From Candidatus Electrothrix rattekaaiensis (GTDB lineage: Bacteria > Desulfobacterota > Desulfobulbia > Desulfobulbales > Desulfobulbaceae), in the NCBI GenBank assembly GCA_032595675.1, contig JAVQMD010000001.1:2326640-2390639 (forward strand): 64,000 bases of DNA, read 5' to 3'. A program made the translations under genes and the position numbers. Of this stretch, positions 13,178-18,072 are shown one piece after another. Positions within the stretch are counted from its first letter, which is position 1. Every line of letters begins with the position of its first letter. The notes under the pieces are model-generated. The model did not search any database and had not been told where the DNA came from. It worked only from the letters and a program-made list of their open reading frames with translations.

Positions 13178-14902
13178 CTACCATTCTTCGTTCCCGACCA
13201 TCCTCCGCCACAGCTCAAAAGTGATCAGCATCCACAGCTTGAGACCGTGCCGTGGCTGGCCGTGTTCCGTGTCATAATTGAGCAGTTCCTCAACTCGATC
13301 CGGGTTAAAAATACCGGCCCGTTTGACCTCCCGCCTGCTCAGAATTTTGCGGGCATATCGGCGCAGATCCTTACGGAACCAAAAATGCACCGGAACCCGC
13401 ATGCCGCTCTTGGGCCGAGTGATGATTGTCTCCGGCAACATATCCTTATACGCTAGCTTCATGATCACCTTTTCAACCCCCTGCCGAAGTTTGAGAGTCG
13501 AGGGCATACGAAAACTTAGCTCTATCAGTCGTTCATCAAACAGGGGGGAAAGCGGCGTCAGGCTGTGGGCCCCGGTCATCCGTTCAACCTTGGGCAGGAT
13601 AAGGTGCGCACCTTTAAGCCGGATATTGATGGCACAAAGTTTGTCGAGAAAATTTTCCGGCTGACGGGCTTGAAAAAAGGGGGTGAGCAGACCTTCAAGC
13701 GCATCATGTGAGCTGTACTGATTACGCCATTCCGGGGTAAGCAAATCCTCCAGATCATCATAGGCCCGGCAATAGGAGGCAAGATAGGCCTGTTCGCGAA
13801 ACAGCGGCCCGCGTTCAATACCGCCGTACCAATGCTGAATCAACATGGGAATATTTTTCGGACCGCCAAAAACTGGATCACCGCCCTCCCCGTTAAACAC
13901 ATAATCCACTTCCTTGGCCGCAATGGCGGACAGCATGTAATTGGGCATGGTCACCGGATCACCGATAGGCTCATCCAGATGATAAATGATGTCGCTGAGC
14001 TGGGGCAGGAAGTCCTTGGGCTGGATCAGGATTTCCCGATGATCGCTGCCAATGCGTTCCGCAACAGCCTGAGAAAATTCCAGTTCGTTGGGGTACTGTT
14101 CGCCGAAGTGGACAGACCAGCTGGGCAGAGGTCGATCAATCTGCCGCATAACCTCACTTCCGACCACGCTGGAGTCAAGCCCGCCAGAGAGAAACAGCCC
14201 CGCTGTGCCGGATTTCGGAAGACGATCTGCCACCGCCCGTTGATGGAGGGTATGAAATTCCCTGATCCACTCCCGCTCATCCTTTTCTTCTTTTTCCTGT
14301 TCCTCAAAGGCGAAAAAACAGCGGGGAGATTCCGCCCGGCCATGGGCGAAGGTGACAGTGTGACCTGGAAGCAGTTCCCACAAGTTCTCCAGCATGGTTT
14401 CCGATCCGGGCACAAAACTGAAGGAGAGGTACTGGGCCACGGCAGCCGGGCGGAGCCTGCGGGGAAAATCGGGCCAAGCCAGTATGCCTTTTGGTTCAAC
14501 GGCGAAAATAAAACGTCCGTTATGCAAGGCATAATAGACAGTGCGGGCCCCGGCACCATCCCGTGCAAGATGAATGTGCTCTCCATCCAGTACGGCGAGC
14601 ACATAGGTTCCTCGGAGATCTTTGACAAACGCTCTTCCTTGACAACGGTAGCTCTGGAGCAATTCCGTCATCGTGGTTTTGTTTTTATCGCCAAAGAGTC
14701 GCCCGGCAAGGGCAATGATCAGCCCGTTATCTTCAATGATCCCACCATGACCGGTTCGGGAAGGAAGCCACGCCGCAGTCGCACGCGAAGAAGTATGGAT
14801 ATGGGCTGAAGATACACCCCGATGACTAAGTGCAGCCGCCATTGCCCGACTATTTTTGCCGTTTTCGTCGCTCTGGCCGGAAAACCCGAAAATTGCGCCC
14901 AT
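13178..14902 (-). CDS. Asparagine-synthetase-like protein lacking the glutaminase cysteine
   Basis: 574 residues: an N-terminal Ntn-glutaminase-like domain (1-200) and a C-terminal ATP-PPase domain with the PP-loop SGGLDSS (239-245) and an NGEGGDPVFGG motif. The N-terminus reads MGAIFGFSG, where AsnB has Met-Cys-Gly. The catalytic Cys2 is Gly, and RGPD and the NGE motif are also lost. It can therefore activate a carboxylate with ATP but should not hydrolyse glutamine. Beta-lactam synthetases and lasso-peptide cyclases share this loss; ammonia- or amine-dependent amidation is the inference. Last gene of the leuA-creA operon, 3 nt after the TPR gene. Confidence 0.85.
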   Translation of the reverse strand: MGAIFGFSGQSDENGKNSRAMAAALSHRGVSSAHIHTSSRATAAWLPSRTGHGGIIEDNGLIIALAGRLFGDKNKTTMTELLQSYRCQGRAFVKDLRGTYVLAVLDGEHIHLARDGAGARTVYYALHNGRFIFAVEPKGILAWPDFPRRLRPAAVAQYLSFSFVPGSETMLENLWELLPGHTVTFAHGRAESPRCFFAFEEQEKEEKDEREWIREFHTLHQRAVADRLPKSGTAGLFLSGGLDSSVVGSEVMRQIDRPLPSWSVHFGEQYPNELEFSQAVAERIGSDHREILIQPKDFLPQLSDIIYHLDEPIGDPVTMPNYMLSAIAAKEVDYVFNGEGGDPVFGGPKNIPMLIQHWYGGIERGPLFREQAYLASYCRAYDDLEDLLTPEWRNQYSSHDALEGLLTPFFQARQPENFLDKLCAINIRLKGAHLILPKVERMTGAHSLTPLSPLFDERLIELSFRMPSTLKLRQGVEKVIMKLAYKDMLPETIITRPKSGMRVPVHFWFRKDLRRYARKILSRREVKRAGIFNPDRVEELLNYDTEHGQPRHGLKLWMLITFELWRRMVGNEEW

Positions 14903-14905
14903 GAA

Positions 14906-15349
14906 TTACTTTTCCAAATAACGGAGCATAGCCGCAGCCTCTGGAACCAGTGGAGAATCAGGATGCGAAGTCATCGCTGCCAGCCTTTTTTGGGCATTGC
15001 CGACATTGCCGAGCCAAAAATCCAGCATAGCCAACTTGTATTGCGCTTTTTGAGCCTCCAGCGTAGCGGGCCAATCTCGAATCAGCGATGCAAAAACCGC
15101 TTGCGCACTGTCGTATTCCCCTAAGCCGATATCGGCCTTGCCAATAAAAAAGAGGGCACGGCTAGCGTGTTTTCCTTTTGGCGCAACCTCAAGGTACTGG
15201 CGGAGCAAAGGAATGGCTTCTTGAAAACGGCCTTGGGTGACCGCCTTTCGTCCCTGAAGAAAAAGATCCCCCTTACCGGCAGAACAGTCCCCGCTTATCA
15301 GGAGAAGAAAGAGTATAAGCAGGACTCCTGATATTGATTTTATCTGCAT
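14906..15349 (-). CDS. Exported tetratricopeptide protein
   Basis: 147 residues with an N-terminal signal peptide (hydrophobic ILLLISGDCSAG stretch; the Cys may mark a lipobox-like site, but the following residue is Ser) and three TPR-like repeats similar to the YbgF/CpoB C-terminus. Probably periplasmic and protein-binding. Nineteen nt downstream of the two-TM gene and 3 nt upstream of the Asn-synthetase-like gene, so the three likely act together. Confidence 0.75.
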   Translation of the reverse strand: MQIKSISGVLLILFLLLISGDCSAGKGDLFLQGRKAVTQGRFQEAIPLLRQYLEVAPKGKHASRALFFIGKADIGLGEYDSAQAVFASLIRDWPATLEAQKAQYKLAMLDFWLGNVGNAQKRLAAMTSHPDSPLVPEAAAMLRYLEK

Positions 15350-15367
15350 AACGCCACCTTTTTTTCT

Positions 15368-15577
15368 TCACCCCCTCCGCAACCGCCGCCAACGGAACCA
15401 AAAACCAAACCCGCTCAGGAGCAGCCCGCCCGCAATAACCACGTAGCGGGCAAGCACCACATCAATCTTGACCAGGGCAATCAGCACCAGCAACACGCCC
15501 ATCCCAATCAGCAACCAATCCGTAGCAACAGCAATTGCATGGCTGATCTTTTGCCCGAGTTCCTGAAAAAATCCCAT
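15368..15577 (-). CDS. Small two-helix membrane protein
   Basis: 69 residues with two transmembrane helices (roughly 18-35 and 42-60) and an Arg-rich C-terminus ending RWRRLRRG, which by the positive-inside rule places that end in the cytoplasm. No family recognised. Its ATG overlaps the TGA of the upstream TusA-like gene (TGATG), indicating translational coupling and hence that the upstream gene is read through to its end. Confidence 0.7.
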   Translation of the reverse strand: MGFFQELGQKISHAIAVATDWLLIGMGVLLVLIALVKIDVVLARYVVIAGGLLLSGFGFWFRWRRLRRG

Positions 15578-15801
15578 CAGGTCCGCTCCACCGTATAGAT
15601 CAAATCTTCACCCTGCTCCTCGACAGTGACAGCACGCCCGTCACTTATGGTGATGACCCGATTCATCCGCTCAGCAATCTTCTTCTCTACAAGAAAGCTG
15701 AACTGCTGGCCGCTCGCCATCTGCTTCAGACGTAACCTTACGTCCTTATAGCCCCTTCAACAATCGCCACGATAATCCTGCAACCCTGCATGCTCCATCA
15801 T
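15577..15801 (-). CDS. TusA/SirA-like protein with in-frame UGA (candidate selenoprotein)
   Basis: A 74-codon frame from ATG 15801, preceded by a strong GGGAGG. Codon 15 is TGA (15759-15757), after which the frame stays open to a final TGA coupled to the next gene. Read with selenocysteine, the start is LQDYRGDCU followed by a helix ending MASGQ, then VTVEEQGEDLIYTVER. This matches the TusA pattern D-x-R-G-x-x-C with U at the position of the sulfur-carrying Cys, and 74 residues is the family size. The usual Pro after that residue is Arg here. A hairpin just after the UGA fits a bacterial SECIS. Alternative: a nonsense mutation, leaving a 14-residue peptide. Confidence 0.7.
15729..15744 (-). 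promoter_or_regulatory. Bacterial SECIS-like hairpin
   Basis: Twelve nt after the in-frame UGA, GACGTA pairs perfectly with TACGTC across the loop AGGT; one more G-U pair extends the stem. The loop begins 18 nt after UGA and carries GGU, as in E. coli fdhF, where the loop begins 17 nt after UGA. This meets the bacterial SECIS spacing and loop rules as I know them. Confidence 0.65.
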
Positions 15802-15815
15802 TACCTCCCTCGCGT

Positions 15816-16337
15816 TTACTGATTCTTCTGCTCCCAAGGCCTGATCACGATAGTAGAAATCGAGTTTTTGGGCGACCCGTCAATAAATTTATCCGAATAG
15901 GTCAGATAGACCAGAGTCTTCCGTTTGGGATCATAAAAACGCACCACCTGCATTTTTTTAAACAACAGGGAGGTGGATTTACGAAACACCCGTTCTCCGT
16001 CGTCCTTGCCGTTGGCCACATCTTCAGGCAGAACAACCGGCCCGGTCTGGCGACAGGCAATGGAGGCATCCGATGTATCTTCGGCCAGCCCCACAGTTCC
16101 CTTGATGCCGCCGGTTTTGGCCCTGCTCAGATAGCAGGTAGCCCCGCTGATATCTGGATCATCAAATGCCTCAATCACGATCTTATCATTGGCCCCGATC
16201 AGCTTAAAGGTGGTGCTTACCTCGCCTATGGTCTCGGCCTGTCCTGCCGTTGTCATGACGAGCAGGGCGGTCAGCAGGCCCCCTGCCCTTCCGGTTTTTC
16301 CCATGATTCCCTTGCGCATGATTCCTCTTGTGTTCAT
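15816..16337 (-). CDS. creA: CreA family exported protein
   Basis: 173 residues from ATG 16337, which has GAGG about 10 nt upstream; the open frame extends to 16388 but overlaps leuA. A signal peptide is followed by the CreA hallmark order: IGEVSTTFKLIGANDKIVIEAFDDP, a Cys in GATCYLSRAKTGGIKG, a second Cys in ASIACRQTGP, and FKKMQVVRFYD. CreA's biochemical role is unknown; it is periplasmic. Fourteen nt upstream of the TusA-like gene. Confidence 0.9.
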   Translation of the reverse strand: MNTRGIMRKGIMGKTGRAGGLLTALLVMTTAGQAETIGEVSTTFKLIGANDKIVIEAFDDPDISGATCYLSRAKTGGIKGTVGLAEDTSDASIACRQTGPVVLPEDVANGKDDGERVFRKSTSLLFKKMQVVRFYDPKRKTLVYLTYSDKFIDGSPKNSISTIVIRPWEQKNQ

Positions 16338-16374
16338 ATCACATTTTCCTCTGCTGAATTTTAACGTCCTGCTG

Positions 16375-18072
16375 TCATCGTCCTGCATGCATTCGATTAA
16401 CCGCGCTGAGCAGGGCTTTGATTGAGGACACGATAATATCCGTATCCACGCCCGCTCCCCACCAGCCCTCCCGGCTGCCGTTCTCCCGTTTATCCATCAA
16501 CTCAATATAGGTGACCGCTCTGGAGGAGGCCCCTTGGGTCAGGGAGTGTTCATCATAAGAATTCAGCGTAAAATGAAGATCAGACTGCTCGTTCAGGGCC
16601 GCACACATCGCATCAAGCGGCCCGTTACCGGTTCCCTTGAGGTTCTGTTCCTTATCGCCGATGACAATAAGAGCTTCAATTGCAGCTGAGGATTTTTCCT
16701 CCTGCTGATCAATATGGCGCTTGACCACATTGAACTCCTTGAGCCTATAATAACCATCCTCCCGCAGATATTCCCGCTCAAAAACATCGTACACTGCCTT
16801 GTTGGATAATTCATCCCCTACCTTTTCCGACTCTGCCTGCACCACCCGTCCGAAACCGGGCTGCATCGCCTTGGGCAGTTTATAGCCGAACTGCCGATCC
16901 ATGATATAGGATACTCCGCCCTTGCCGGACTGGCTGTTGATACAGATGATGGATTCATAGGTACGGCCCACATCTTCGGGGTCAATGGGCAGATAGGGCA
17001 CAGCCCAGATGCCGGATGCATCCTCGCTCACCGCATCCATGCCCTTGCTGATGGCATCCTGATGAGAACCAGAAAAAGCCGTGTAGACCAAATCGCCCAC
17101 ATAGGGATGACGGGGATGAACAGGCAGGTTGGTACAGCGTTTATACACATTAACCACCCGGTTGATATTGGAAAAATCCAAATTCGGATTAACGCCCTGA
17201 CTGAACATATTCAGGGCCAGGGTAATAATATCCACATTGCCAGTGCGCTCGCCATTACCAAACAGGGTGCCTTCCACCCGATCAGCCCCGGCCATCAGGG
17301 CCAGCTCAGTGGCTGCCACCGCACTGCCCCGGTCATTATGGGCATGGAGACTGATCAGAGCACAGTCGCGATCCTTCATATGACGACTGAACCACTCAAT
17401 CTGGTCGGCATAGATATTGGCTGTAGCCATTTCCACGGTTGCTGGCAGATTGACCACCACTGGTCGTTCCGGGGTCGGTTCCCAAACGGCCATAACCTCC
17501 TCGCAGATCTCCAAGGCATAATCAAGCTCTGTGCCGGTAAAGCTCTCCGGTGAATACTCATAGCGGATATCACCGTCAAACCGGGCCGCCTCTTCACGAA
17601 TGATCTGCGCTCCCTGCACCCCGAGTTGGATAATTTCCTTTTTGTCCATCCTGAAGACCACCTGCCGCTGTAAGGTAGAGGTGGAGTTATAGAGATGAAC
17701 AATCCCCTTGCGCACGCCCTCTAAGGCTGCAAAACTTTTGCGGATCAGATGTTCACGGGCCTGGGTCAGCACCTGCACCGTCACATCTTCCGGGATCAGG
17801 TTTTCTTCAATCAGCAGGCGGAGAAAATCAAATTCCACCTTGGAGGCCGCTGGAAAGCCGACCTCAATTTCCTTAAAGCCGATATCAACAAGCAGTTGAA
17901 ACATCTCCAGCTTCTGCTCCAGATTCATGGGCTGACTCAGGGCCTGATTGCCATCACGAAGATCAACAGAGCACCAGAGCGGTGCTTGGGTGATGGTCTT
18001 ATCGGGCCAGGTGCGATCCTTCAACGGCACCGTCGGGTAAGGACGATATTTCTTCAATTTATCAGCCTGCAT
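16375..18072 (-). CDS. leuA: 2-isopropylmalate synthase (long form)
   Basis: Condenses acetyl-CoA with 2-oxoisovalerate, the first step of leucine synthesis. 565 residues: a TIM-barrel HMGL domain with CSVDLRDGNQAL near residue 33 and metal-binding HAHNDRG near 243, then GERTGNVD, a linker and the C-terminal LeuA regulatory domain (from ~430) that binds leucine. The length fits the long (yeast/actinobacterial type) class. It is preceded by a leucine-rich leader peptide and a terminator, so it appears attenuated by leucine supply. Confidence 0.96.
   Translation of the reverse strand: MQADKLKKYRPYPTVPLKDRTWPDKTITQAPLWCSVDLRDGNQALSQPMNLEQKLEMFQLLVDIGFKEIEVGFPAASKVEFDFLRLLIEENLIPEDVTVQVLTQAREHLIRKSFAALEGVRKGIVHLYNSTSTLQRQVVFRMDKKEIIQLGVQGAQIIREEAARFDGDIRYEYSPESFTGTELDYALEICEEVMAVWEPTPERPVVVNLPATVEMATANIYADQIEWFSRHMKDRDCALISLHAHNDRGSAVAATELALMAGADRVEGTLFGNGERTGNVDIITLALNMFSQGVNPNLDFSNINRVVNVYKRCTNLPVHPRHPYVGDLVYTAFSGSHQDAISKGMDAVSEDASGIWAVPYLPIDPEDVGRTYESIICINSQSGKGGVSYIMDRQFGYKLPKAMQPGFGRVVQAESEKVGDELSNKAVYDVFEREYLREDGYYRLKEFNVVKRHIDQQEEKSSAAIEALIVIGDKEQNLKGTGNGPLDAMCAALNEQSDLHFTLNSYDEHSLTQGASSRAVTYIELMDKRENGSREGWWGAGVDTDIIVSSIKALLSAVNRMHAGR

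Follow-up and report, generated by a model that had tools for sequence, protein, structure and literature searches.

A putative selenocysteine-only protein family of Desulfobacterota with a predicted TusA-like fold

Introduction

Does an in-frame TGA in a small gene of Candidatus Electrothrix rattekaaiensis encode selenocysteine (Sec), and if so, what would the resulting protein do? In bacteria, TGA is normally a stop codon. Selenoprotein surveys have found UGA genes mostly through Cys homologues, and a Cys-containing homologue at the UGA site is a usual search criterion for a selenoprotein, not a strict requirement. The gene lies in a stretch of 64,000 nucleotides (hereafter the window), and a sequence-only reading of this DNA had proposed that it encodes a Sec form of a TusA-like sulfur carrier. 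We read the gene as belonging to a new family of Desulfobacterota that is so far known only with Sec and whose biochemical role we infer.

Results

Reading frame and adjacent genes

The gene spans 15577..15801 on the minus strand, where the predicted frame of 74 codons with a TGA at codon 15 (15757..15759) was indeed present; the Cys codon TGT (15760-15762) stands just before this TGA, and the final stop TGA lies at 15577-15579. With TGA read as U, the minus-strand translation is MMEHAGLQDYRGDCURGYKDVRLRLKQMASGQQFSFLVEKKIAERMNRVITISDGRAVTVEEQGEDLIYTVERT, followed by TGA. A plus-strand reading of 15577-15801 was ruled out since there are stops in its first frame, and no plus-strand open reading frame of at least 60 aa was found over these positions. 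The expected ribosome-binding site, GAGGGAGG (15804..15811, minus strand), was found ahead of two successive ATG codons, 2 bases from the first and 5 bases from the second. Because this spacing favors the second ATG, translation may start there, which would give 73 codons.

The ATG of the next gene, which encodes a 69-aa hydrophobic protein with no Pfam match (15368..15577, minus strand), overlaps the final TGA (TGATG, CTGATGGG). This coupling to the next gene had been noted from the sequence alone, and it recurs: in 13 loci, this one included, the hydrophobic-protein gene starts -1 to +2 bases from the selenoprotein stop codon. Further downstream on the same minus strand is a gene for a TPR protein (14906..15349). 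Upstream lie creA (15816..16388, minus strand; PF05981) and a leuA-type gene (16375..18072, minus strand), which was named from a reading of its sequence and whose cluster has 20 members among the loci, its own included.

In the window group of the family, the neighbors are thus leuA-creA and the small hydrophobic protein gene. Other subfamilies are found beside a YkgJ-like and a ferredoxin-like gene, tatC, a polyphosphate-kinase-like gene, or selB (3 genomes of one genus). Unlike creA and selB, the leuA, YkgJ-like, ferredoxin-like, tatC and polyphosphate-kinase-like genes carry presumptive names that we took from reading their sequences. The selB-adjoining gene is a second paralogue (MRKK[IV]RIDIDYRKDCUWG...) directly downstream of selB in these 3 genomes (L057 2076-2300; L066 2994-3230; L072 158-400), with 44-53 bases between the matched stretches.

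Distribution of the TGA

When 145 related genomes were searched with the read-through protein, 58 of them matched, at 74 places, all of which were read. The TGA was present at the same codon in 68 of the 74, and the remaining six comprised TTA (Leu) at two places, TAA at one, Leu CTG at one (G118), one broken copy and one place with no visible motif. Three rows had been set aside before the TGA count: G104:C108 (broken), G059 (no visible motif) and G118 (Leu, read separately). A TGA copy was carried by 54 of the 145 genomes, 14 of which have two copies. The codon before the TGA was Cys at 66 of the 68 places, Ala at one (G051) and Thr at one (G124). The orthologue check suggested by the sequence-only reading therefore shows the UGA kept with few exceptions (68/74) and Cys in none.

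In a sample of the phylum, 36 of 395 genomes matched the read-through protein, and all 32 places with E below 1e-5 carried one TGA, each preceded by Cys; four of these 32 fall in genomes already counted among the 145. Five weak matches (G231, G236 twice, G240 and G421) were dropped, three of which we read as ABC-transporter ATPases. Since most genomes in the phylum sample have no match, the selenoprotein does not belong to the core of sulfur metabolism. In 84,980 species, a strict DNA motif scan returned 76 stretches, all in records of Desulfobacterota or Deltaproteobacteria (including Desulfobulbaceae, Desulfocapsa, Electrothrix, Desulfogranum, Desulfacinum, Desulforhabdus and similar) except for two records of one MAG titled Pseudomonadota. 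Distant members, mostly with the motif IDSRxDCUKxxVGVGLRFR (L228-L237), occur in other families of the phylum. A 104-row tree of the relatives has few columns, and no claim made here rests on it.

A Cys form at the UGA site was found nowhere among the matches in the 145 related and 395 phylum-sample genomes, and a scan of the 84,980 species for a Cys-Cys motif returned 8 stretches, none of them a relative.

Variants and losses

An ordinary codon at the UGA site of orthologues had been named as a finding that would speak against Sec. Such a codon, Leu (TTA/CTG), occurs in three genomes of one genus, and elsewhere the UGA is mostly kept. The six matching genomes of this genus (g29) divide into two with Cys-TGA, three with Leu and one with Thr-TGA (G124); at the variant loci (L082, L089, L090 and L093) the pair reads Thr-Leu or Ile-Leu (TTA, CTG), or else Thr-TGA followed by a damaged hairpin. 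In all three Leu genomes the preceding Cys is lost too, with Thr or Ile in its place. Inner pairs of the hairpin described below are broken in the TTA genomes, three in G134 and two in G088 (two of the three Leu genomes were checked), and two are broken in G124. A tRNA-Sec scoring above 70 bits is kept in two of the three Leu genomes (G088 and G118), which indicates that Sec was dropped from the protein without loss of the Sec system.

Single copies vary in other ways. The G051 copy (L084 509-790) has Ala for Cys and keeps both TGA and hairpin. The second copy of G050 (L078 2962-3198) has TAA for TGA with an intact hairpin, which may reflect either recent decay or a sequencing error. The G142 copy (L056 2983-3210), where helix 1 is interrupted by an additional in-frame TAA, is probably a decaying gene. 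Cys and Sec thus seem mostly to go together; the pair is not inseparable, because two TGA copies are without the Cys (Ala in G051, Thr in G124).

The hairpin after the UGA

A SECIS-type hairpin of 6 bp with the loop AGGU lies at 15729..15744 on the minus strand, +13 to +28 after the UGA. Its sequence is GACGTA-AGGT-TACGTC, with the loop at +19 to +22. The stem and loop are those described in the sequence-only reading, whereas the hairpin begins 13 nt after the TGA and not 18.

The pairs of this hairpin were standard in 701 of 714 cells (seven pairs in 102 distinct TGA-bearing sequences, in register without gaps; 52 of 157 records had been set aside as identical or shorter than 63 bases). As a control, sliding the pairing partner by 1-4 bases left only 22-60% paired. 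When 19 more distant sequences were added, the six inner pairs were standard in 717 of 726 cells. Pair (18,23) was A-U in 46, G-C in 48, C-G in three and unpaired in five of the 102 sequences. This change sits in the third base of a Val codon, where it is invisible to selection on the protein, and the third base varies together with its pairing base (GTA with TTA in 37/102, GTG with GCA in 40/102). Pair (14,27) was G-C in place of A-U in 11 of 121 sequences. In addition, the Arg at +9 is encoded by CGT in 99 of 100 sequences, and the upstream Arg (DYR) by CGT in 8 of 67. The mean folding z-score was modest (-2.1), and covariation is the stronger argument for the putative element. The Rfam covariance model SECIS_1 (RF00031) did not match the window hairpin and was also silent in all 14 controls, and cmscan of 14500-17000 at E up to 10 returned only three sub-threshold, unrelated families.

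Selection and Sec machinery

Among seven genomes of the genus (G005 left out), dN/dS was 0.10 ahead of the TGA (7 codons), 0.22 in the hairpin (ten codons) and 0.21 over the 49 codons that follow it. Purifying selection acts on both sides of the TGA. Synonymous difference was 0.19 in the hairpin codons versus 0.42 and 0.48 outside them.

The check for selA, selB, selC and selD in the genome found the full Sec machinery: selB (C1:1932158-1934077, 376 bits), tRNA-Sec (74.8 bits), selA (626 bits) and selD (344 bits). A selB at E 1e-60 or better is present in 51 of the 54 genomes with a TGA copy, and the other three have a tRNA-Sec of 72.6-74.8 bits. The selD of the window genome (L210, G000:C1:1925405-1926334) itself contains an in-frame TGA, so SelD is probably a Sec form too; a second selD-like frame without a TGA lies at C1:1741955-1742899.

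We considered whether there is no selenoprotein here, with the TGA being a true stop or the gene being split and restarting at a downstream ATG. The normal use of TGA as a stop in bacteria agrees with this explanation, as do the non-TGA site in 3 of 6 matching genomes of one genus and the TAA in the second copy of another genome. It is contradicted by the purifying selection on both sides, the conserved Cys-TGA, the covarying hairpin and the full Sec machinery, and we judge it very improbable. Taken together, the conserved TGA, the covarying hairpin, the selection on both sides and the complete machinery support the selenoprotein reading, and the UGA at codon 15 is almost certainly decoded as Sec.

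Predicted fold and kinship with TusA

An AlphaFold model was made from a 63-row alignment (63 of the 74 matched places in the 145 genomes). It had a mean pLDDT of 92.6 and the order beta-alpha-beta-alpha-beta-beta, and a model of a true TusA from the window genome showed the same order of elements. The first four Foldseek rows were YeeE-YeeD (three chains) and TusA, with methyltransferase domains close behind. The VIA Z values were 10.5 for YeeD, 9.5 and 9.1 for E. coli YhhP/TusA and 8.8 for a SirA-like protein; because the best unrelated fold, a tRNA methyltransferase, reaches 8.6, the fold alone would not settle kinship.

We relied on profile comparison as well. The window protein scored 11.9 bits against the Pfam TusA family (PF01206), below the cut-off of 28.6, and no Pfam match at E up to 1 was found for a query with the longer start and one extra residue at the end. 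PF01206 was the family most often matched, weakly, in 7 of 63 members at E up to 1 (best E 0.029) and in 6 of 43 members of a more diverse set (best E 1.5e-4). With hhalign, the 43-row profile matched 27 TusA rows from related genomes at E 2.6e-4 (probability 42%). After trimming, the match was at E 5.8e-5 (probability 66%, 73 columns) with a score of 26.5, versus at most 14.5 in 40 column shuffles, and with Cys and Sec both masked it was at E 7.7e-5. The 63-row profile alone gave a weak match to TusA (E 0.0088, or 0.0024 trimmed; probability 5-12%), so that the match is convincing only with the more diverse alignment. A sequence search of solved structures with the 63-row alignment gave three weak rows, none of them relevant. 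From the profile comparison we conclude distant homology to TusA. The "TusA-like" label of the sequence-only reading is thus supported by the predicted fold and the profiles, though the protein falls below the Pfam TusA cut-off and is without the invariant Pro. This small product is very probably related, at a distance, to the TusA/SirA/YeeD fold group and carries its Cys-Sec pair where helix 1 begins.

The Cys-Sec pair and the TusA Cys

The TusA motif is D-x-x-G-x-x-C-P, in which G, C and P are invariant in the 27 TusA rows, and the motif of the selenoprotein family is D-Y-R-x-D-C-U, followed mostly by K, R or W. The Cys-Pro (CPxP) at the start of helix 1 is absent from the family, which has Cys-Sec followed mostly by K, R or W there. 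In the window protein the residue after U is Arg and not Pro, as had been pointed out: the translation gives DCURG, and the invariant TusA Pro is missing. The vicinal Cys-Sec is present in all 43 rows of the diverse alignment, among which the copies with Ala or Thr before the TGA and the Leu forms are not included.

The UGA had been placed exactly at the catalytic Cys of TusA. This placement holds to within one residue; "exactly" does not, since the methods split between Cys13 and Sec14. Counted from the Asp, Sec meets the TusA Cys, and counted back from a later conserved Gly, Cys meets Cys and Sec meets Pro. The Cys before Sec fell on the TusA Cys, and Sec on Pro, in two of three MAFFT alignments and in hhalign when the profile was unmasked; the third MAFFT alignment paired Sec with the TusA Cys, and the hhalign register moved by one residue when Cys13 (the Cys before Sec14) was masked. 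The safe statement is that the Cys-Sec pair takes the place of the TusA Cys-Pro.

Discussion

Gene order was rejected as a guide to function, as the neighbors are too variable among the subfamilies; because they differ, our proposal rests on the fold and the Cys-Sec pair. We tentatively suggest that the selenoprotein may work like a TusA-type chalcogen carrier. We place this role first, ahead of, in descending order, a redox protein, a soft-metal binder and a selenium-delivery protein. Decoding of the UGA almost certainly draws on SelA, SelB, SelD and tRNA-Sec, with the mRNA hairpin at +13 to +28 serving as the SECIS element. In such a carrier, a sulfane sulfur (or selenium) atom would be loaded onto the Cys-Sec pair and passed on to a partner, and release could proceed via a selenenylsulfide bond between the adjacent Cys and Sec, which a cellular reductant would then reopen. 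If this is true, the Sec-only carrier has a release step that is absent from ordinary TusA. Two observations fit the carrier poorly. There is no constant gene partner among the subfamilies, and a simple pattern picks out lipoprotein-like leaders in three or four of 22 distant members; the Sec domain may therefore be exported in these members, where a cytosolic relay fits poorly. The whole explanation, which joins Sec decoding, a relative with the TusA fold and the conditional carrier step, we consider probable on balance. The wider picture is more tentative than the carrier role itself: a Sec-only family of TusA-fold carriers, with Cys-Sec for Cys-Pro, might move sulfur or selenium in the sulfur-cycle Desulfobacterota, cable bacteria included.

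The vicinal Cys-Sec, seen in 43 of 43 rows and at 66 of 68 TGA places, would also suit a thiol/selenol redox protein in which the pair cycles between the reduced and the selenenylsulfide form, for instance in reducing disulfides or peroxides. The neighbors that were read include no clear sulfur-transfer partner, and a 2026 review (PMC13188914, in the text available) regards most uncharacterized selenoproteins as likely redox proteins. However, the best fold match is TusA and not thioredoxin, and we hold a redox role to be possible but rather unlikely.

Binding or transfer of soft metals or organometals (Hg, As, Cu) through the Cys-Sec pair seems improbable to us. To our knowledge, the TusA fold has no metal-binding or metal-transfer role. 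Several "CU" families do bear metal or organometal names, namely SaoL, HgcA, MbdU and a CopZ-type 2Fe-2S protein (PMC13188914, in the part available), but the neighbor clusters that were read, with unsystematic annotation, do not resemble mer, ars or cop genes.

Finally, the protein could deliver selenium to the Sec machinery, as a selenium counterpart of TusA that feeds SelD or SelA. This explanation draws on the paralogue that immediately follows selB in one genus (3 genomes), and on YedF, a protein with a TusA/SirA domain that is linked to selD by gene context (PMC2432076 and PMC5322559, in the text available). However, the adjacency to selB was noticed only in that one genus, and 74 of 129 selB-bearing genomes have no match to the family. 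Since so many selB-bearing genomes are without a match, the selenoprotein is evidently not needed for Sec synthesis, and we rank delivery last of the four roles, as quite improbable. The chalcogen carrier remains our tentative first choice.

In the open-licence PMC literature, as far as its text was available, we found no report of a Sec-containing TusA/SirA protein, and none appears in the available parts of PMC9312934, PMC2398784, PMC8318568, PMC5029168 and PMC4607533. No TusA/SirA entry is listed among the 119 families of the 2026 catalogue (PMC13188914), and both words are absent from the portion of its main text that was available. The window protein has no match over cut-off in Pfam and NCBIfam (June 2026). 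According to the available text of the deep-Sep study (PMC12013277), families without Cys homologues may be missed, and 22 known and no new selenoproteins are given there for a genome that is apparently the carrier G012. If our reading is true, a Sec-only family would escape methods that need a Cys homologue.

Among known systems, the "CU" selenoproteins (KCU-star, SaoL, SaoC, HgcA, MbdU and the Csac_0668 type) share the vicinal Cys-Sec, but their domain ids in Table 1 of PMC13188914, as available to us, place them in other families, and none of the "CU"-family NCBIfam models is among the 12 models that match any of the 63 members at E up to 1. The DsrE-like, rhodanese-like and OsmC-like selenoproteins in the same table are likewise sulfur-handling families with Sec; unlike the present family, they have other domain ids and the Sec motifs UxxC, UxxS, UxxG, CxU and UxxT. 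YedF (TIGR03527) is similar in having a TusA-type domain tied to selenium use (PMC2432076 and PMC5322559, in the text available), but its motif is CPxP, with no Sec, and it carries a DsrE-like domain in addition, whereas the window protein has 74 codons and one domain. TIGR03527 matched neither the window member nor any of the 63 members at E up to 1, and a YedF-type domain in the window genome (L002) scored 59 bits over the part given, the cut-off being 110. Compared with TusA/SirA/TsuB(YeeD) (PF01206; NF001423, NF041048), the family differs in having Sec beside the Cys, no Cys-Pro/CPxP and no Cys form found, and it is alike in predicted fold, length, the Cys at the start of helix 1 and a co-linear profile match. 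With it, a widespread sulfur-carrier fold would gain a Sec form, in organisms whose livelihood is sulfur chemistry, and the reason why a cell should require selenium at that site could readily be tested.
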